Origin: Candidatus Melainabacteria bacterium
GTDB taxonomy: Bacteria; Cyanobacteriota; Vampirovibrionia; 2-02-FULL-35-15
Reading direction: 5' to 3'
DNA: 50,021 bases
NCBI GenBank assembly: GCA_016201905.1
Contig: JACQBQ010000024.1
Coordinates: 116,919 to 166,939, forward strand
Numbering within the stretch: the first letter of the stretch is position 1; each line of letters starts with the position of its first letter. The translations under genes and the position numbers were made by a program. Below the pieces are notes generated by a model. The model worked only from the letters and a program-made list of their open reading frames with translations, searched no databases and was not told where the DNA came from. Below are positions 18,973-30,418 of the stretch, in pieces.

Positions 18973-19071
18973 GTTTATTCACTATAATACCTTTTTGGTA
19001 TTACAAAAAATTATTTTTCTGTTTAAAAGATATAATTAGCAATGGTTTTATAACTATAAAGGAGAATGTCA

Positions 19072-19935
19072 ATGCCACTTATCACAAACTATATCTCAAT
19101 GATTATTTTCTTTGTAATTGCTGGTTTAGGTTTCGTTTTTTTATCACCGCTTATGTTTACACAGAGCATATTTGGAACATTGTTATATGGTCTTGTAGTT
19201 GCTATTGCAATTTTTGTTTCATCCGGAATAAAAATTGCAGCTCAGTGGGAAAAAGCAGTGGTATTCAGGCTTGGGAAATACAATTCTATTCAAGGACCTG
19301 GAATGTTTTTTATAATTCCAATGATTGATGAACTTCGTATGATAGACACAAGGATACTTACTATGGATATTCCAAAGCAGCAGGTGATTACTAAAGACAA
19401 TGTACCTGTTTCCATAAACGGTGTTTTATATTTTCTGGTTTCAGATCCTGAATCTGCGGTGGTAAAAGTTCAGAACTATTCATATGCAATTTCACAATAT
19501 GCACAAGCAGCACTTCGCGATGTAATGGGTGGTATGACATTTGATGAGATTCTTGCTGAACGGGAGCAGATTGGAAAGTCAATTGAAGCAAATGTAGAAA
19601 AAGAATCAAAAGAATGGGGACTTGAAGTAAAAGGAATAAAAATTCAGGACATTGATGTGCCTGAAGATTTAAAGAAAATGATGTCGCGCCAAGCATCAGC
19701 TGAGCGAGAAAAAAGAGCCACTATTACAAAAGCAGAAGGCGATAAAATGGCAGCATTTAATTTATCAGAGGCAGCTAGAACTATGCACTCAAGCCCTGGT
19801 GCAATGCAGCTTAGAACACTACAGACTATTGATGGCCTTGGACCCACAGCATCAAATACGGTGCTGCTGGCTGTACCGATTGAAATTATGGAGCTTGTGA
19901 ACAAGTTTTCAAAAGAGCAAAATGGAAAGAACTAA
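19072..19935 (+). CDS. Slipin / SPFH (stomatin-like) membrane protein
   Basis: About 287 residues. Two close hydrophobic segments at residues ~8-30 and ~34-52 form the membrane anchor. They are followed by the SPFH domain: EKAVVFRLGKYNSIQGPGMF, DTRILTMDIPKQQVITKDNV, and DVMGGMTFDEILAEREQI. A helical EREKRATITKAEGDK region typical of stomatins comes next. I took the second ATG (19072) because GGAG lies seven bases before it and only one before the first ATG (19066). Slipins organise membrane microdomains and often pair with NfeD proteases. No NfeD partner is present here. Confidence 0.92.
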   Translation: MPLITNYISMIIFFVIAGLGFVFLSPLMFTQSIFGTLLYGLVVAIAIFVSSGIKIAAQWEKAVVFRLGKYNSIQGPGMFFIIPMIDELRMIDTRILTMDIPKQQVITKDNVPVSINGVLYFLVSDPESAVVKVQNYSYAISQYAQAALRDVMGGMTFDEILAEREQIGKSIEANVEKESKEWGLEVKGIKIQDIDVPEDLKKMMSRQASAEREKRATITKAEGDKMAAFNLSEAARTMHSSPGAMQLRTLQTIDGLGPTASNTVLLAVPIEIMELVNKFSKEQNGKN

Positions 19936-20082: not shown

Positions 20083-20376
20083 ATGTATTTTCTTTCAGCT
20101 CAGTATTCCACTCCATATAAAATTAATTGGTCAACTCTGTATACGACGAATAAACTTAAAATAGAAAATAGTAATTGTGAGATTTCTCTAGATCCAGTCA
20201 ATAAATCCGGTACGTTTTTGGATAAGAAAACAAGAATTAAAGGTGTAATTAATCCTGGCGGCAATTGTGTTATTAATCAAAGCGGTGAGACTGTTACTGA
20301 TTTCAATCTGGCAGTAAGTCATTATAATAGTCAAATAACTTTTCTTGTCAGGCAAAAATTAATTCAAAAGCTTTAG
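20083..20376 (+). CDS. Hypothetical protein, 97 residues
   Basis: GAGGA lies nine bases before the ATG. The protein is polar and probably mostly beta-strand (repeated short hydrophobic/polar alternation), with two cysteines. There is no signal peptide or known motif. Its 3' end overlaps the convergent lipoprotein gene by 18 bases. Confidence 0.5.
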   Translation: MYFLSAQYSTPYKINWSTLYTTNKLKIENSNCEISLDPVNKSGTFLDKKTRIKGVINPGGNCVINQSGETVTDFNLAVSHYNSQITFLVRQKLIQKL

Positions 20377-21066
20377 AGATTTTAAAGACTTCAATCTTTC
20401 TATACTTAAGCCCCAGGCAGGTTCATATACTGGCTGTTTAGCCAGTGAAGCATCTTTGTTAAAAGCTTCTATTGAATCTAATAATTTTGTACTTTGATTG
20501 ATAACATTGGGCAGGCTTTTTTTGTATGTTGAATAATCTTTTATTCGTCTTTGTACTGCATCTTTAATCTCCTTTTCACTATATGTTAGATTTTGTAGAT
20601 CGTTTCTTTGTCTTATTCCGTTTTCAAGTCTTTTAGTAAGAGCATCTTCAGATAAATCAATATACTTTTTCATATAATTAGCCCCCCTAATAGACCATTC
20701 TAGAACTTGATCAAATTCTTCAATTGTCTCCTTGTTTGTAAGAACAGTTAAAAAGTCACAGCCTAAAAATCTATCATTAGCTTTAGTTAATTGACGACCA
20801 CATGTAACTCCATTTGCTTCTCCTTGTTTTGGATCAACTACTAAATATGATTCCCACAATATGTCAGATAAACTGCTTGCCCACTTATGTAAATTGGATG
20901 CTAATTCACGCTCGCCTTTTTCTATCTTATTTCTTTCTTTATCCAGAATATCTTTAGTTTTTATTACCTGAACATTATTGACTTTATCTCGCGCATTACA
21001 ACCACTGGCTATAAATGGAACTGATAGAGCACTAAGCAAAGTTGCTGTTCTAAAAAATATTTTCAC
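20359..21066 (-). CDS. Lipoprotein of a local paralogous family (WGLS tail), member 1
   Basis: 235 residues with a lipoprotein signal ending FIASGC (Cys23). After a short linker comes a charged helix starting ILDKERNKIEKGERELASNL. A helical body follows, then the family end: SIEAFNKDASLAKQPV and YEPAWGLSIERLKSLKSLK. The same start and end blocks occur in the genes at 21079-22362, 22378-23130 and 26193-26909. I do not recognise the family. It is the last gene of a four-gene minus-strand operon (12-base gap to the previous gene). The likely location is the outer or inner membrane, periplasmic side. Confidence 0.75.
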   Translation of the reverse strand: MKIFFRTATLLSALSVPFIASGCNARDKVNNVQVIKTKDILDKERNKIEKGERELASNLHKWASSLSDILWESYLVVDPKQGEANGVTCGRQLTKANDRFLGCDFLTVLTNKETIEEFDQVLEWSIRGANYMKKYIDLSEDALTKRLENGIRQRNDLQNLTYSEKEIKDAVQRRIKDYSTYKKSLPNVINQSTKLLDSIEAFNKDASLAKQPVYEPAWGLSIERLKSLKSLKLLN

Positions 21067-21078
21067 AATTTACTCCTT

Positions 21079-22362
21079 CTACTTAATCGATTTTAAATTT
21101 AAAGACTCCAACCTTTCTAAACTTAGTCCCCATCTTGATTCATATGCAAGTTCATTTGCTAATTTTGTGTCCTGATTAAATTTTTCAATTGATTGAATTA
21201 GGCTTGATATTTCTTGCTTTAAATCTTCAATTGATTTTTTGTATTTAACAAACCCATTAACAGCTTTTTTTACCCAATCTTTCGCCTCTTCTTCTTTAAA
21301 ATCTTTAAAAACATTTCTGTAACCTTTATCAACTTTGTCAGTAAACTCTTCAATGGATAACTTTAAATATTCTTCCACAAATGGAGTCGCCTTATCTGTA
21401 GCTTTAATTCGCCTTAGGAAAAGTTCAATTAATTCATCATTCGGTACCTTTTCTTTTGGTGTAGAATGCAGTTCTCTATTAAAATCTTGGCTACAGTCTG
21501 ATAATTTGCATATTACACCAAACGTTTCATTACGTTTTTCTATAGGTGATATGAATGGTGTAGTATAAAAAAGAACCCCACTAAGATTAGTTGACCAATC
21601 AATAAAACCATTAGCAAGTTTTACTTCTTTAGCTTTTAACTCTTTGCGTTCAGTGGCAAGAACTTTTTTTGATTTTACAATTTCATTTGGCTCTACCAGA
21701 GGAACATCAACAAAAATCGTAATATTCTCTACTTTTTTTAGATCTAATCCCCATACTGGGTTATAAGGAGGTTCATTTATCTCCTTGGCTTTTTTATTGA
21801 AATCATATATTGATTTAGATAGATTATCTCTGTGTGTACGTATCTTTCTTAGGGATTGTTGATAATCCGTAAAATATTCTCGAATATGTTCTGCCTTAAT
21901 CTTTTTAGAAATCTCTTCAGGTTTCATTGTGCTATAAATCCATGTACATGCAACTCCTTTTTGTACCATGCTAATAAGTCTATTAAAAGCTTCTGATTGT
22001 TCTTCATTTGGTTTTTTAATTGAAAAATCATTACCAGTAAGTTCTATAAGTTCCTCACTTCGGTTAATTAATTTTTTAGCTATATCTCTTGCAGCTAAGC
22101 ACTCTTCCTTATTTTCAGAAACCATATTTAAATGAAAAAGTACATTTGGGAGATCACAAGAAGCCAATGCCTCAAGCTCACTAGCAAACTCACGCTCTTT
22201 TTTCTCAATGACTTTTCTTTTCTCGTCGATCTCTTTTTTAGAATTTATGTCAGCTGGTTTTACTTCCTCAATTTTAGGTTTTTCATTTGTCTTGTTACAA
22301 GCAGTGGCTGCAAATGGAATTGATAGTGCTAGTCCTGTTACCAAAGCCCTTGCTATTTTCAT
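21079..22362 (-). CDS. Lipoprotein of the WGLS-tail family with two tandem domains, member 2
   Basis: 427 residues with a signal sequence ending ATAC (Cys22). The mature protein has two copies of the family unit. Copy 1 runs from EIDEKRKVIEKKEREFASEL to YNPVWGLDLKKVENI. Copy 2 runs from VLATERKELKAKEVKLANGF to YESRWGLSLERLESLNLKSIK. The gene is thus an internal duplication or fusion of two single-unit genes like its neighbours. Unknown function. It lies 12 bases before member 1 and 15 bases after member 3 in the same operon. Confidence 0.75.
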   Translation of the reverse strand: MKIARALVTGLALSIPFAATACNKTNEKPKIEEVKPADINSKKEIDEKRKVIEKKEREFASELEALASCDLPNVLFHLNMVSENKEECLAARDIAKKLINRSEELIELTGNDFSIKKPNEEQSEAFNRLISMVQKGVACTWIYSTMKPEEISKKIKAEHIREYFTDYQQSLRKIRTHRDNLSKSIYDFNKKAKEINEPPYNPVWGLDLKKVENITIFVDVPLVEPNEIVKSKKVLATERKELKAKEVKLANGFIDWSTNLSGVLFYTTPFISPIEKRNETFGVICKLSDCSQDFNRELHSTPKEKVPNDELIELFLRRIKATDKATPFVEEYLKLSIEEFTDKVDKGYRNVFKDFKEEEAKDWVKKAVNGFVKYKKSIEDLKQEISSLIQSIEKFNQDTKLANELAYESRWGLSLERLESLNLKSIK

Positions 22363-22377
22363 GGTTATCTTACTCCT

Positions 22378-23130
22378 TTATTTAATTGATTTTAAAGACT
22401 TCAATAGCTCTAAACTCAGTCCCCATCTTGCTTCATAAGATGTTTGACCAGCAGCTTTTGCGTCTTTGTTAAACTTTTCGATTGATTCTATGAATTTTGG
22501 TGTTTCTAAGATCAATTTGTTCGAAAATCTTTGATAAATTTCAAAACCTTCTAAAGCAATTTCTTTAGATTCTTTAATACCTTCTATTGATCTGTTGAAC
22601 TTCTTCCCTCTTTTTTCAATACTTTTATATATGTCATCTAATACTATTTGTGGAGCTACTTTAACACCCATCTTAACAGCTTTAATAAATGCTTCTACTT
22701 GATCTTTGCTTGGATCTAAACGAAAATCGTTTTTTTGTTTCTTAGGTGGCACAACAGATCTAGCTATTTTTTTTACATCATCAACTATTTTGTCAAGATC
22801 AGTTTCTGGTGGAACTATAGCATCGCACCCATCACCTACCCGTGTAACTCCAAATTCTTGAAGTACAAAATTAAACTCTGTCATTGGGTCATCTATTTTT
22901 TCCTCTCTCAAATGAGAGCCAGTTGTATTTAGCCATGATAACCAATTGTTGAGCACCTTAACAAGCTCACCTTCTTTCATTTGCAGAGATTTCCTTTCTG
23001 ACTCAATAGCTTCATTAGCAGGGTTTACGACTGCAGGTTTTTCAGTTAACTTATTGCAGGAATAAACTCCAATTGGTACTGATAGTACTGTACTCGCTGC
23101 TATTATTCTTAATTTATTTGTTATTTTCAT
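22378..23130 (-). CDS. Lipoprotein of the WGLS-tail family, member 3
   Basis: 250 residues with a signal sequence ending GVYSC (Cys25). After the signal comes the family helix AIESERKSLQMKEGELVKVL. The body holds two segments of charged residues, and the end is SIEKFNKDAKAAGQTS and YEARWGLSLELLKSLKSIK. Two further cysteines are not evident except one in DGCDAIVP. Unknown function. It starts 24 bases after the HExxH gene's stop and is co-transcribed with it. Confidence 0.75.
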   Translation of the reverse strand: MKITNKLRIIAASTVLSVPIGVYSCNKLTEKPAVVNPANEAIESERKSLQMKEGELVKVLNNWLSWLNTTGSHLREEKIDDPMTEFNFVLQEFGVTRVGDGCDAIVPPETDLDKIVDDVKKIARSVVPPKKQKNDFRLDPSKDQVEAFIKAVKMGVKVAPQIVLDDIYKSIEKRGKKFNRSIEGIKESKEIALEGFEIYQRFSNKLILETPKFIESIEKFNKDAKAAGQTSYEARWGLSLELLKSLKSIK

Positions 23131-23154
23131 TTATATTTCTTCTTAGAAAATCTT

Positions 23155-24912
23155 TTATGTAACATATGTTCTTTGTATTGGCGTGTCACTTCTATAATCC
23201 CAACATAATAGAGTGTCATCAAGTATACTAATATTTTCTTTGTCTCTTGCTAAGAAATATATTTCTTGGAATTTACCTTCTTTAATCAAGGCATCAATAC
23301 TAGATCTCAATTCTTTTAGACTAATATCATCTTTTTTCTGTGGAGAGCCTAGTTGAGTATCTAATTTGTCTTCTATTCTTTTTGCTGCATATTCAAATGA
23401 ATCTAGTTTTTCCCCTCTTTCATTATATGGGCTTATAAATTTCCTTTTTGCTGTAGTTAAAGCACTTTCTAAAACTTCTTTTGCACTTGCATTATTAGGG
23501 TCTTGTTCATTTGTTAAAGCTTCTGCAATATCACTATTTATCCTTATGTTTCTTATAACATTTCCTGAGGTACTATCCTTAGTAAGAGTTACTATTGCTG
23601 GACTAACCATAAGCTCATCACAAATAATTTCTATTTCTTGTCCCTCGAAACTAAATTTTTCAATAAGTCTTTGTTGTAGATCAGGTATTTTATTCGCTGA
23701 TTCTAAAAGTTCTTGGAATGAGGAATCTATAATTTTTTGCTTGATATTGTGTATTATTTCTTCCACATCTCTGTAAAAATATCTTCCCAGTGAAACATTC
23801 ATTGCTTTCTTTAATTCAGTTGGTTTAAAATTCTTTGGTTTTGTTTTTATAACAAACCCCCACTTCTTGACACTGCAAAGTTCTTTATATAAAACTTTTA
23901 GTGCAGCAATAACACTTTTTTCGTATTTAGAATTATTAAATGAGAAATCAAATGGAAGAATAAAATTTTCATCAAGTTCACCTTCTTCTTGTCGTAAGCT
24001 ATTATGAATGAATTGAACTGCAAAAGGAGCAATTTCTGCTTGGTTAACAGAATCTTCTTCTTTTAAATCTTTTATATCACCCTGAAGTTGGTGGACAATT
24101 TCATGTACAAGTCTAGTTTCTAAAATCATTCTAATTCTTGCTAAATCCTTGTAAGAATTTTGACTTAATGCATGGATAAGATCTTCTACAACTTCATAAT
24201 TTAATTCAATTCCAAGAAATGAATTTGCATTCATGTAAAACCTGTCATCGCTTTTACCTACTATAACTAAGCCAGGCCTTACATTTCCTGGATATACAAG
24301 TGGGGATAAAGACTGTACTTCTAAAAAGTTTAATGCTCTGGTAAATGCACCATATAATTCCCTATTAGCTTTTTTAATAAGGTCATCATTTTTTTTGTTT
24401 TGATCAGCTTGTAAAATAAATAATAACCCTGAGCCTGCTGGAATCAGATCGATTTTATCTATCTCGTTTAACTTATCTAATAAATAAATAATATGAATGT
24501 CGCCCAATTTAAAAGTGTTAGAAAGGTATAATTTCGATTTAGAGTTTGCTAGCTCATTCCATACTTTAATACCCATGTAAGCTCTAAGGTCTATGAACCT
24601 TCTACACATTACCCCAATATCATTATTAAAGGTTAATTTTCTAATTTCTGACAGTTGATCTCTAATGTTGCTTATATATTCAGTTGGTGACTTAGCTTTT
24701 GACTTTAAATCTTTAATTGAATCAGAGGTTAAGTGAGATAATAATTTAATTCCTTCTCTATTTGTTGGAACAAGATTGATCGGGGTATCTATTAATGGAG
24801 CTCTATATAAGTTTTTATTAAGAGTACTAAGAGGCTCATCAAATTTTCTATTTGCTAATGTAGCCTGAGAACTGCTTCCAAAAAGATAAGAAATTACTTT
24901 TCCAACAACCAT
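23155..24912 (-). CDS. Putative zinc metallopeptidase-like protein (HEIVH), 585 residues
   Basis: No signal peptide is visible. The clearest motif is LVHEIVHQLQGD with an HExxH at residues 270-274, in a helix, as in many zinc peptidases. An acidic segment NQAEIAPFAVQFIH follows and could hold the third ligand. The rest is helical and does not match a family I know. It is the first gene of the operon with three WGLS-tail lipoproteins. It is divergent from the phosphatase gene across a 115-base intergenic region. Peptidase activity is inference. Confidence 0.6.
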   Translation of the reverse strand: MVVGKVISYLFGSSSQATLANRKFDEPLSTLNKNLYRAPLIDTPINLVPTNREGIKLLSHLTSDSIKDLKSKAKSPTEYISNIRDQLSEIRKLTFNNDIGVMCRRFIDLRAYMGIKVWNELANSKSKLYLSNTFKLGDIHIIYLLDKLNEIDKIDLIPAGSGLLFILQADQNKKNDDLIKKANRELYGAFTRALNFLEVQSLSPLVYPGNVRPGLVIVGKSDDRFYMNANSFLGIELNYEVVEDLIHALSQNSYKDLARIRMILETRLVHEIVHQLQGDIKDLKEEDSVNQAEIAPFAVQFIHNSLRQEEGELDENFILPFDFSFNNSKYEKSVIAALKVLYKELCSVKKWGFVIKTKPKNFKPTELKKAMNVSLGRYFYRDVEEIIHNIKQKIIDSSFQELLESANKIPDLQQRLIEKFSFEGQEIEIICDELMVSPAIVTLTKDSTSGNVIRNIRINSDIAEALTNEQDPNNASAKEVLESALTTAKRKFISPYNERGEKLDSFEYAAKRIEDKLDTQLGSPQKKDDISLKELRSSIDALIKEGKFQEIYFLARDKENISILDDTLLCWDYRSDTPIQRTYVT

Positions 24913-24983
24913 AACTCCCCTGTTTATAAACTGAATTCAAAGTATCATAGTCAAATATTTAGTTCAATATGCTTTACTGATTG

Positions 24984-24989
24984 TATAAT
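24984..24989 (+). promoter_or_regulatory. Probable -10 box of the phosphatase gene
   Basis: TATAAT lies 38 bases before the ATG at 25028, in the divergent intergenic region of 24913-25027. No strong -35 is visible. Confidence 0.4.
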
Positions 24990-25027
24990 TGAATAATTGC
25001 TAAATTTAAATTTAGAAAGAACATGTC

Positions 25028-26200
25028 ATGCAAGTAAAACTTGGTTATAGTGCTGCAACTTCACAACTTAAAAACCATGTTTCTCAAAGAACATTGCAAC
25101 AATATGAGAAAAAGCCCCAGTTCCAAACAGCTTCTCCAATGCCTTATGCAAATAATATAGAAATAGCAGACAGAGCAGAAACATTACTTGCACAGATTGC
25201 ATATCATCTAAGAAATATAAGACCTGCTCCAAACTTATTTTTTCAAGCCAATGACATTGTACCGATACCTGATATTCATGGGGATTTTACTCATCTAATT
25301 ATTACTCTACACAGGCATGGACTTTTAAATTGTGAGCTTGATTTAAAGAAAGATTTTAATTATAGTTTTCTGGGAGATTTTTACAATCGTGGTAAAGATG
25401 CAGATGTGGTTGACTATTGGTTAAATAAGCAAATAGGAAATAAAATCAATGTTTATCGGATATCAGGAAATCATGAACTATTTTTCTTGGCAAGGGATGA
25501 AAATGGGAATCTAAGATTTAAACTTCGTGATCCTAGAGATGGAAAAGAATTCCCGATAACATCCAATGATGTAAAAAATGACATAGCTAATAACTACCAG
25601 ATTACAGAAGAATTATTGAAAAGTATAAAAGATGGAAATCTTTTAGCTGCATATACTGCGCTTGATATTAAAAATAATATTCCTATTCTTTATGCTCATA
25701 CTTTTGTAACCACTGAAGACGAAAAGAGATTAGGTGTCAGTGAAGAAGAAATCATAAGTTTTGTACAGGGTGCCAATGAAAAATTTAAATCTTTAGGTGT
25801 AGAATCTTATAAAAGATTCATGGATTCTAAAAGTAGAGAAAAATTTGACTGGAAAGAAATAGCAGAGCCTCTTTTTAATGAACCATTGTTTAATATTTTT
25901 TATAGAGATAAAGATCAAAGGGTTGATGCCTTCTTTATGAGAGTAACTGGTTTAAATGAGAATCTTAAAATCATAAGTAAAATAAATGATGAAATCCCAG
26001 ATGGAGTTTATCAAATAGTCGGTCATACAAGGATACCTGATTTTGATTTACCAAATGATTATCCGACTAATAGACCATTAATTCTTCCCAGTAAAAATGG
26101 TAAAGCATTTGTTCAGTTTAATGATATTGGAATGGGGACTTACTATGATAAAGATAATCTGAATAGACCTGAAGTTGTAATAAACCCAGAAGTTATTTGA
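25028..26200 (+). CDS. PPP-type metallophosphoesterase
   Basis: 390 residues. The motifs of PPP/calcineurin-like phosphatases appear in order: PDIHGDF (Asp82, His84, Asp86), GDFYNRG (116-122), GNHE (147-150), a later His in YAHTF, and GHTR near residue 335. The usual GDxxDRG has Asn120 in place of Asp. Serine/threonine phosphatases and diadenosine tetraphosphatases share this fold, so the substrate is not clear. The first ~60 residues are outside the domain and lack a signal peptide. It overlaps the convergent fourth WGLS-family gene by eight bases. Confidence 0.8.
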   Translation: MQVKLGYSAATSQLKNHVSQRTLQQYEKKPQFQTASPMPYANNIEIADRAETLLAQIAYHLRNIRPAPNLFFQANDIVPIPDIHGDFTHLIITLHRHGLLNCELDLKKDFNYSFLGDFYNRGKDADVVDYWLNKQIGNKINVYRISGNHELFFLARDENGNLRFKLRDPRDGKEFPITSNDVKNDIANNYQITEELLKSIKDGNLLAAYTALDIKNNIPILYAHTFVTTEDEKRLGVSEEEIISFVQGANEKFKSLGVESYKRFMDSKSREKFDWKEIAEPLFNEPLFNIFYRDKDQRVDAFFMRVTGLNENLKIISKINDEIPDGVYQIVGHTRIPDFDLPNDYPTNRPLILPSKNGKAFVQFNDIGMGTYYDKDNLNRPEVVINPEVI

Positions 26201-26909
26201 TTGATTTCAAGGATTTTAAGAAATCTAAATCAAGTAATTTGGATTTAAAAACTGGTTGATTTGCTGCTTGTGCATTTTTATTAAAGATTTCTAAATCACT
26301 AATAAATTGTTTACCTTCCACAGGTAAAGCTCTTACAGTTTCTTTAAATAGTTTAATTGAAAGGACTGCTCCTTTTACACCATCCTCATCAACTGGCTTA
26401 TTTGCTTTTTTTAATGCTTCTCTATAATTCTTTTCAACTTTGTTACCAAAGTCATTTAAAGATACATCTTTAACATGAGGCAAAATTAACATAGCTGCTT
26501 TGTCTGCGACACTCATACAATTTCGAAAAGCTTCCAATTGTTTTGGAAGGTTATTCTTTTTTTGAACTTCAAGTATAAAATTTTGTCTGGTAATAGTAAG
26601 CTCTTTCTCTATATCTGCTATTTTCTTTCTCTCTTCCAGGTTATCTATACCTAACTGCACATGATATGAAGCCATATGCGCTTCCAATGTAAGATTATCT
26701 AGTTTATTAATAAGCTTAATTTCATTTTCTTGAATAACTTTTCTTTTTTGGTCTATTACTTCTTTGGTTTTTGCATCTTTAGACTTAACAACACCAATAT
26801 CTGGACCAATTTTTTTTCCTGGATCAGATTTTTTTGCATCACCTCCAAAACTATTACCAACAAGTGGAAGAGATAAAGCAGATGCAAGTATTAACTTAGG
26901 AATATTCAT
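26193..26909 (-). CDS. Exported protein of the WGLS-tail family, member 4 (no lipobox)
   Basis: About 238 residues. I placed the start at ATG 26909 because GGAGG lies eight bases upstream; an in-frame TTG at 26924 precedes that site. The signal peptide MNIPKLILASALSLPLVGNS shares the ALS(V/I/L)P core with its relatives but has no lipobox Cys, so this member is probably soluble in the periplasm. The family helix is VIDQKRKVIQENEIKLINKL. The end is DLEIFNKNAQAANQPV and LLDLDFLKSLKSIK, which lacks the WGL triplet. Unknown function. Confidence 0.7.
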   Translation of the reverse strand: MNIPKLILASALSLPLVGNSFGGDAKKSDPGKKIGPDIGVVKSKDAKTKEVIDQKRKVIQENEIKLINKLDNLTLEAHMASYHVQLGIDNLEERKKIADIEKELTITRQNFILEVQKKNNLPKQLEAFRNCMSVADKAAMLILPHVKDVSLNDFGNKVEKNYREALKKANKPVDEDGVKGAVLSIKLFKETVRALPVEGKQFISDLEIFNKNAQAANQPVFKSKLLDLDFLKSLKSIK

Positions 26910-27043
26910 TAAATTAACCTCCAATAAAATTTATAATTTAAATAAATAATACTTGATCAAAAAACAAATTTCAATGTTATTACGTCAAGCAAGCTATAAT
27001 TAGGTATTGTTGGTTACTGAAAATTTAATATCATATCCTTAAT

Positions 27044-27117
27044 CGGGCCGTGGCTCAGCTTGGTAGAGCACTACCTTGGGGTGGTAGGGGTCGCGAGTTC
27101 AAATCTCGCCGGTCCGA
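27044..27117 (+). tRNA. tRNA-Pro(GGG)
   Basis: A 74-base cloverleaf. The acceptor stem is CGGGCCG with CGGTCCG (one G-T pair) and discriminator A. The D-arm is GCTCAGCTTGGTAGAGC. The anticodon stem CTACC/GGTAG has loop TTGGGGT (anticodon GGG). The T-arm is GCGAG-TTCAAAT-CTCGC. CCA is not encoded. It marks the left side of the accessory zone. Confidence 0.95.
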
Positions 27118-27120
27118 TTT

Positions 27121-27618
27121 TTATAAGAGTTTATACATCACATAAGCATCAACATATTCTTTTTGTTTATAATAAAAAGCTTTTGGTAATGTGCCGATAA
27201 TTTCGAAACCATACTTCTGGCAGATTTTTATTGAGGCTGTGTTTGTGCATACTACAAGATTGACTTGAATTGCTTTAAATCCAAGTTCTCTTGTTTTATT
27301 AATTGCAAATTCCATCATCTGTTTACCAAGCCCTTTTCCTCTATATTCTTTATCTATCATTACTCCAGTATTTGCAACATGGCTTCCAAGACCAGCTTTG
27401 TTTGGCACTATATACCTCGTAGCAACTGGCTTTCCATCCAAGTATGCAATGTAAACATGAGCATCCTTTGTAAACCAAAGCTTTTTTGCCTCTTCTTTAG
27501 TTGTGCATGGAAGGTAAGGATAAGTATCTGCATCTTGAATAACTTCATGAAAAATTGGCCATATCTGATCAAATTGATTTTCAGAAACTTCTTTAATAAT
27601 TATTTCTTCCAGTTGCAT
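27121..27618 (-). CDS. GNAT-family N-acetyltransferase
   Basis: 165 residues with the acetyl-CoA binding motif A, VMIDKEYRGKGLGKQMMEFA (RGKGLG), and the motif B-like ICQKYGFEIIGTLPKAF. The substrate is unknown; the layout resembles RimI/YhhY-type enzymes. It starts three bases after hicB stops and is likely co-transcribed with hicAB. It ends four bases from the tRNA-Pro on the opposite strand. Confidence 0.88.
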   Translation of the reverse strand: MQLEEIIIKEVSENQFDQIWPIFHEVIQDADTYPYLPCTTKEEAKKLWFTKDAHVYIAYLDGKPVATRYIVPNKAGLGSHVANTGVMIDKEYRGKGLGKQMMEFAINKTRELGFKAIQVNLVVCTNTASIKICQKYGFEIIGTLPKAFYYKQKEYVDAYVMYKLL

Positions 27619-27621
27619 TTT

Positions 27622-27981
27622 TTATGCATATCTCAACTTATCCACAATAAACTGGTTCAAACTTTTATTTTCATTTTTTGCCTGTAATTTTATTTTAGTT
27701 TCAAGTGTTCCTGGAATTCTAAGTGTAATTCTCTTCTCGCTTTCAGTTAATGGCTTAGAAATCTCATATCCATCCATTAACGCTGTTTCTATCCAATCAT
27801 ACATAGCCTGTTGTATATTCTTTTGAGCTTCAATAGGTGTTTTTCCATGTGACAAACAACCCGGTAATTCAGCAATTCTACAAACATAATAAGTCTTATT
27901 ACCGTCTTCCTCTGGGGTAACAATAAATGAATAAGGTAGATTTAGATATTCTTCTATATTTTGCTTTTTGTTTTTCTTCAT
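27622..27981 (-). CDS. hicB: HicB-like antitoxin
   Basis: 119 residues. The N-terminal HicB fold is YSFIVTPEEDGNKTYYVCRI followed by AELPGCLSHGKTPIEA, the usual antitoxin core. The C-terminal part, TESEKRITLRIPGTLETKIK, is an Arc/ribbon-helix-helix DNA-binding segment. It would bind and neutralise the HicA toxin and repress its own operon. GAGGA lies eight bases before the ATG. It follows hicA after a 10-base gap. Confidence 0.88.
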   Translation of the reverse strand: MKKNKKQNIEEYLNLPYSFIVTPEEDGNKTYYVCRIAELPGCLSHGKTPIEAQKNIQQAMYDWIETALMDGYEISKPLTESEKRITLRIPGTLETKIKLQAKNENKSLNQFIVDKLRYA

Positions 27982-29263: not shown

Positions 29264-30418
29264 ATGATGATAGAAAGAGAACTTTCAAAAAAAGTAAAAT
29301 CATTAGCCAAGAAGATGCCTATAATAGCTATTGTAGGGCCAAGACAATCAGGAAAAACAACGCTTGTAAAATCTTTATTTAAAAACAAACCTTATATTTC
29401 TTTTGAAAATTCTGATGTGAGAAATCATGCTTTAGATGACCCTAGGGATTTCTTAGGGAAATATCCTAAAGGGGCAATATTTGATGAAGTTCAAAGAGCA
29501 CCTGAATTGTTCTCATATTTACAAGGAATTATTGATGAAAAAGATAAGCCGGGAATGTTTATTCTTACAGGATCTCAGCACTTCTTATTGCTAGAGAAAG
29601 TTACACAATCCTTGGCAGGAAGAGTTGCAATACTTGAGCTTTTACCATTCAGTCTAAAAGAGTTATCAAAGTCATTTAAATGTTCAATTGATGATGTAGT
29701 TTTTAAAGGGTTGTATCCAAGAATATATGATAAAAATTTAAATCCTGTAGATTGGTATGCTGATTATATAGAGGCTTATCTTGAAAGAGATGTTAGACAA
29801 ATAATGAATATTAAGGATTTAAGTATGTTTAAAAAGTTTTTAAGTTTGTGTGCTGGAAGAGTAGGTCAGCTGTTAAATTTATCGTCTCTTGCAGTTGAAT
29901 GTGGAATTACACACACTACGGCTAGAGAGTGGATAAGCATACTAGAAGCAAGCTTTATAATATATCTTCTTCAACCACATCATAAAAACTTTAATAAAAG
30001 AATAGTTAAAATGCCAAAACTTTACTTTTATGATACAGGGCTGGTTTGCTCATTATTAAATATTGAAAATAAAGAACAGTTATCTACTTACCCATTAAGG
30101 GGAAATATTTTTGAGGCTTTTATTATGTCTGAGTTATTAAAACAAAGGTTTAACAAAGGACTAAAATCAAATCTGTATTTTTGGAGGGATAAAACAGGGC
30201 ATGAGATAGATTGCATAGTAGAGTCTGCTGGCAGTTTAACCCCTATTGAAATCAAATCAGGAAAGACTATAAATAGTGAGATGTTTAAAAATATAGAGTA
30301 TTGGAAAAAGATTTCAGGAAAAATCAATAGTGACTCTTACTTAATATATGGTGGTAGTAATAATCAAAAACGAAGTGGGATTAATGTTCTTTCCTGGAAA
30401 GATTGCAATATCTTATAA
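29264..30418 (+). CDS. AAA_14/DUF4143 P-loop ATPase
   Basis: 384 residues. The N-terminal P-loop domain has Walker A GPRQSGKTT (residues 25-33), Walker B GAIFDEVQRAPELF, sensor ILTGSQHFLL, and the family block SLAGRVAILELLPFSLKEL. The C-terminal DUF4143 domain ends with a nuclease-like FWRDKTGHEIDCIVE ... PIEIKSG motif. The cellular role of this family is not known. It stands alone between repeats, with its own promoter. A relative lies at 35704-36870. Confidence 0.92.
   Translation: MMIERELSKKVKSLAKKMPIIAIVGPRQSGKTTLVKSLFKNKPYISFENSDVRNHALDDPRDFLGKYPKGAIFDEVQRAPELFSYLQGIIDEKDKPGMFILTGSQHFLLLEKVTQSLAGRVAILELLPFSLKELSKSFKCSIDDVVFKGLYPRIYDKNLNPVDWYADYIEAYLERDVRQIMNIKDLSMFKKFLSLCAGRVGQLLNLSSLAVECGITHTTAREWISILEASFIIYLLQPHHKNFNKRIVKMPKLYFYDTGLVCSLLNIENKEQLSTYPLRGNIFEAFIMSELLKQRFNKGLKSNLYFWRDKTGHEIDCIVESAGSLTPIEIKSGKTINSEMFKNIEYWKKISGKINSDSYLIYGGSNNQKRSGINVLSWKDCNIL

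Follow-up and report, generated by a model that had tools for sequence, protein, structure and literature searches.

The window analyzed here, a stretch of 50,021 nucleotides from a Candidatus Melainabacteria bacterium, carries four minus-strand genes whose predicted exported products share a C-terminal tail, and the question raised by this locus is what kind of protein these genes specify, what the tail is for, and how the copies arose. Gene A (20359-21066; 235 aa) starts with GTG downstream of the ribosome-binding site (RBS) AAGGAG, has a lipoprotein-type signal peptide (IASGC followed by N), and ends in the tail YEPAWGLSIERLKSLKSLK. Gene B (21079-22362; 427 aa) is read through two units: B1 (21712-22362), of subfamily B1, has a signal peptide (ATAC followed by N) and the end WGLDLKKVENITIF, and B2 (21079-21711), with no signal peptide of its own, ends in YESRWGLSLERLESLNLKSIK. 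Gene C (22378-23130; 250 aa), of subfamily C, has the tail YEARWGLSLELLKSLKSIK and an insertion with a Cys and the motif VPPETxLxKV. Gene D (26193-26909; 238 aa; tail LLDLDFLKSLKSIK) begins with ATG after its own RBS, GGAGG, and has a signal peptide without a lipobox Cys; a promoter-like match lies upstream of D, but the promoter scan overall was not above chance. Genes A, B, and C form one run, and D is located about 3 kb upstream, past the gene for an HExxH protein (HEIVH; 23155-24912, minus strand; 585 aa) and a divergent gene for a calcineurin-like phosphoesterase (25028-26200, plus strand). Our tentative answer, to which we give a little less than an even chance, is that the products are lineage-restricted, envelope-anchored helical proteins, mostly lipoproteins, which are encoded in a variable array and bind partners outside the inner membrane.

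The five units are homologous. All 10 full-length pairs gave Smith-Waterman scores above those of all 200 shuffles (z 11 to 34); after removal of the signal peptide and tail, four pairs were still far above the shuffles (z 11 to 15), A-D and B1-B2 were moderate (z 5.5 and 4.8, respectively), and the four pairs with C were weak (z 1.8 to 3.2). What places C with the other units is its tail, the helix at its N terminus, and its orthologues. These scores, together with the signal peptide on each gene, bear out the preliminary description of four genes and five units as exported paralogues. Eight columns are invariant in the five units (V35, R46, E53, E146, F148, F220, N221, and L238 in C numbering), and the features conserved among the relatives are a signal peptide that includes the Cys, a first helix with the R..(6)..E pair R46 and E53, P140/Q144/F148, Y199, FN at 220-221, and, in the tail, W236, G237, L238, and Leu or Ile at 240, 243, 246, and 249.

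A lipobox-like Cys had been described in three of the genes, and it is indeed found in A, B, and C, while D has Phe at this position; among the 10 members with a visible N terminus (alignment inspected by eye), D is the only exception to a Cys at the lipobox. We infer that A, B, and C are lipid anchored at this residue, but the lipobox of C is weak (VYSC) and D lacks the Cys, which counts against the favored reading in that not all members need be lipoproteins. None has Asp after the Cys, and by the enterobacterial +2 rule, unproven here, the outer membrane would be the likelier location. The ALSxP signal-peptide core, also described as a shared feature, is present but is not family specific, as other lipoproteins of these genomes have it, some of them with EF-hands; a signal-peptide profile with one EF-hand-type row included also picked other lipoproteins, among them L084, L085, L086, and L089. 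The EF-hand-type lipoproteins of these genomes (for example, L048, L084 to L086, L089, and L040:1209-1772) have a very similar signal peptide, MKIL...ALSxPLxxxGC, and are multicopy like the tail family, with one of them in the same gene run in G008, but their mature part is unrelated, with a DxNxNxxLxxxE calcium-loop-like motif and without the WGL tail. The Pfam EF-hand was confirmed for L089 only. A calcium-loop-like motif, DxNxNxxLxxxEIDLF, marks a further, likewise multicopy family of small lipoproteins (L048 [G003:C11], 868-2619; L049, 1501-2028; L040:1209-1772), with four consecutive genes in G003 and, in G008, one gene lying just upstream of the tail family; two members searched against Pfam were not recognized.

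The preliminary description held that the tail belongs to no known family, and this stands: there was no convincing match in Pfam, NCBIfam, PHROG, PADLOC, PDB, or BFVD. Weak matches in Pfam, NCBIfam, PHROGs, PADLOC, and PDB sequences were isolated and pointed to coiled-coil or helical proteins; those in Pfam each concerned a single member, the best in NCBIfam was GpsB (2 of 12 members; E 0.0034; 16 bits against a cutoff of 91), PHROGs matched single members (best E 6e-4), and PADLOC gave E 0.014 or worse. An MNIO-RiPP precursor was also considered and rejected on weak, N-terminal matches only (E 0.09 to 0.13). The literature on Melainabacteria lipoproteins did not yield the array family. The family is new to the libraries searched; its general kind, a lineage-restricted lipoprotein array, is familiar.

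Structure prediction, which the preliminary description had proposed for one unit, gave an all-helical protein for both A (AlphaFold2; pLDDT 82, pTM 0.75) and C (pLDDT 76, pTM 0.69), each model being built on an alignment of seven sequences drawn solely from the window and the named G003 contig. The helices of A span residues 38-75, 79-98, 112-136, 140-157, 164-208, and 222-229. Although A and C come from different subfamilies, their models agree in a long N-terminal helix, a helical middle, a 45-residue penultimate helix, and a short C-terminal helix, preceded by 30 to 35 disordered residues. The short C-terminal helix is the tail (pLDDT about 85 to 94 in both models), which, as read from pLDDT only, may be packed in the domain. 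Both export, as predicted from the signal peptides, and the all-helical fold, as modeled, are well supported. Foldseek found nothing below E 0.1 in PDB or BFVD. Among the matches listed for A, the highest TM-score by target length (0.41) belonged to the LemA family (PDB 2etd), which is likewise helical; however, an E value of 1.4 and a TM-score below 0.5 are within noise, and no member has a Pfam LemA match. A likeness of another kind is offered by Borrelia PFam54, arrays of divergent helical lipoproteins that can act as surface binders (PMC6062577). These outer-surface proteins (CspA, BBA64, BGA71) are likewise paralogous exported lipoproteins of low mutual identity encoded in a gene array, and they comprise an all-helical domain with a C-terminal helix variable in length and placing (PMC6062577), comparable to the array family. 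However, there is no sequence match, the phylum and the chromosomal locus are different, and PFam54 proteins bind complement, for which the array family is not known to have any counterpart; PFam54/CspA was not among the best 50 Foldseek matches listed for the A or C model. The resemblance is only an analogy, not membership.

The tail had been described as shared, with the signatures WGLSLE and LKSLKSIK. An FN block and a tail of the form WGL(S/T)L...LKSLKSIK are indeed shared, but the exact WGLSLE is found solely in C and B2 (A has WGLSIE, B1 WGLDLKK, and D LLDLDF), and B1 ends in ENITIF like its orthologues instead of LKSLKSIK, a divergence that speaks against the favored reading. The tail is conserved beyond its own genome, being found in the relatives, so the refuting check named in the preliminary description does not go against it. 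Between the window paralogues the tail is 48% identical versus 22% for the body. Third codon positions and synonymous codon choice are not unusually alike in the tails, being about as in the remainder; recent gene conversion is therefore unsupported, and constraint at the protein level is the better account. Such conservation at the extreme C terminus, with an HExxH gene just upstream in the window, could be expected of a sorting or processing signal (type IX or sortase-like) that is read by a dedicated machine or by the neighboring HExxH protein. We consider this distinctly improbable: sorting tags occur on unrelated cargo, whereas a tail-only profile run on 11 genomes met family members only, apart from very short weak matches, some of which are a decayed remnant in G005; since the tail is confined to one family, it is not a general sorting tag. 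Moreover, the B1 orthologues end differently, and in both models the tail is a confidently predicted helix. The proposed link to the HExxH gene is also unsupported. This gene lies 24 bp upstream of gene C and is probably cotranscribed with it in the window, but its partial relatives in other genomes all lie away from the family. The HExxH protein had no family match in Pfam, NCBIfam, or PADLOC; partial relatives of about 360 aa occur in several related genomes (28 to 34% identity over about 200 aa), and a second relative is present in its own genome (C32:98893-99375). The tail was further considered as an amphipathic membrane helix and rejected, its hydrophobic moments not exceeding those of shuffles, and this result, too, weighs against the favored reading of envelope-anchored binding proteins.

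A profile of the five units detected members in G002, G003, G005, and G008, four further genomes from the same taxonomic family, giving 5 of the 11 genomes in this small sample and 1 of the 3 genomes of genus g6; among 386 genomes sampled across the phylum, matches were confined to the same taxonomic family. Matches in G010, G015, and G055 (E 0.02 to 0.04, with fewer than 65 profile positions each) were taken as chance. In a contig search with B1 of G003, the sole named record matched was the G003 contig, Candidatus Melainabacteria bacterium nzgw193; with C as the query, there was no match. In a maximum-likelihood tree of 11 rows, in which B2 was not placed, the B1 sequences of the window, G003, and G005 form one clade (support 100/99), the C sequences of the window, G003, and G008 form another (100/98), and A joins single genes from G002 and G008 in a loose group; B2 by eye is most like an incomplete contig-end fragment of G008. 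The window copies of B1 and C are 56% and 51% identical, respectively, to their G003 orthologues. Because orthologues of B1 and C occur in other genera and the paralogue bodies are about 22% identical, the duplications are old, and, on the sequences, at least two subfamilies are older than the genera. The same facts contradict the earlier view that the units multiplied in tandem within a single genome and diversified rapidly. A recent expansion would fit the five units of the window, the most seen in any genome, but several copies are also found in G003 and G008, and such an origin is scarcely credible.

Features that look peculiar to the window lineage are limited to the B1-B2 fusion and possibly D. 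The B1 orthologues in G003 and G005 are single-unit genes that stop where B2 begins, at TIFVH(SDKK), and in the window the frame continues from ENITIFVD into B2; the likeliest origin of gene B is fusion of a B1 gene to a downstream neighbor that would have lost its signal peptide. Directly behind B1 in G005, a short frame reads MFILTKPIK...EDLIAPYEPRWG, and the next reading frame gives LSLEFLRSLKSI, a decayed remnant with a frameshifted tail; in G003, a 115-aa open reading frame (ORF) after B1 has the same leader at its start, and 40 residues are 84% identical. Both stretches may reflect the birth and death of units.

The array occupies a variable site. In all five family-bearing genomes, a tRNA-Pro(GGG) (ARAGORN) lies about 0.2 to 3.2 kb from a family gene; in the window, the family fills 7.1 kb between this tRNA (27043-27118, plus strand) and, at the other edge of the variable stretch, the gene for an SPFH/Band 7 protein (19066-19935, plus strand; Pfam PF01145, E 4e-41). 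Two genomes without the family have the SPFH gene and tRNA-Pro 54 bp (G006) and 122 bp (G007) apart with nothing between them, and in G001 another ORF is found there. The family gene of G002 lies across the tRNA on the opposite side, adjoining a GNAT gene, with a helicase and the SPFH gene still close; in G003 and G005, SPFH and tRNA-Pro are on separate contigs, and the family remains with the tRNA. That the stretch beside tRNA-Pro(GGG) is variable is well supported. The adjacency in all five genomes could also mean that the family is cargo of a mobile element integrating at tRNA-Pro, and in G005, alone among the family-bearing genomes, a serine recombinase gene ends at this tRNA, and G010 has one with 96% identity there. 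The G010 element, however, lacks the family, the window, G002, G003, and G008 have no recombinase close to the family, the G002 gene sits on the other side of the tRNA, and searches of IMG/VR and of phage and plasmid collections detected no family member at the sensitivity applied, so carriage as cargo appears quite unlikely. The two recombinase genes (L042:10939-12629 and L118:11928-13754), which belong to two genomes of a single genus and end at or within tRNA-Pro(GGG), suggest in themselves that the tRNA is an integration site.

In the favored reading, as envelope-anchored helical proteins with binding partners, the products would be exported by the Sec route, and most would be held at the envelope by a lipid on the lipobox Cys. 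The disordered linker would present one all-helical domain of about 190 residues, in which the long penultimate helix would end with the conserved FN motif, and the last short helix would be the WGL..L..L tail, most likely closing the domain and thus serving as a fold element rather than an address label. The drift of the middle helices to about 22% identity would fit paralogues with different partners (protein, glycan, or envelope component), and copies would be gained, fused, and lost at the variable stretch beside tRNA-Pro(GGG). The surface or interaction role put forward in the preliminary description is possible. A close rival holds that these are periplasmic or envelope-maintenance lipoproteins, structural or chaperone-like, without outward binding. 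Lipoprotein export and a helical fold fit this equally well, and retention of B1 and C orthologues across genera suits a stable housekeeping role; however, the patchy presence (5/11 genomes; 1/3 of genus g6) and the gain and loss of copies at a variable locus speak against an essential one, and we regard maintenance as possible but somewhat doubtful. It is unlikely, in our view, that the binding proteins go further and are surface-displayed lipoproteins of a new helical fold, in a birth-and-death array at tRNA-Pro(GGG) of groundwater-type Melainabacteria, recognizing other cells. At present, this is a further lipoprotein array restricted to one lineage. It contributes an undescribed protein family, with the FN block and the WGL[ST]L..L tail as its defined signature, to a little-known branch of Cyanobacteriota and identifies a variable chromosomal site beside tRNA-Pro at which envelope proteins differ between genera. 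If the domain is a surface binder, it would offer a way into studying how these bacteria encounter other cells.

The remaining neighbors can be described briefly. The phosphoesterase encoded between C and D matches Pfam Metallophos at E 5.6e-4, just short of the curated cutoff, and weakly matches the Wip effector model of NCBIfam (18.7 bits against a cutoff of 300); its relatives occur in 10 of the 11 genomes at other places, so it is widespread and unlinked to the locus. Beyond the tRNA, the window encodes a GNAT acetyltransferase (27121-27981), with a HicB-type antitoxin gene upstream of it, and an ATPase-type protein (GPRQSGKTT; 29264-30418), whose gene likewise recurs near this tRNA and which is 91% identical to the product of a G001 gene 0.2 kb from tRNA-Pro and 67% identical to that of a gene near tRNA-Pro in G009.
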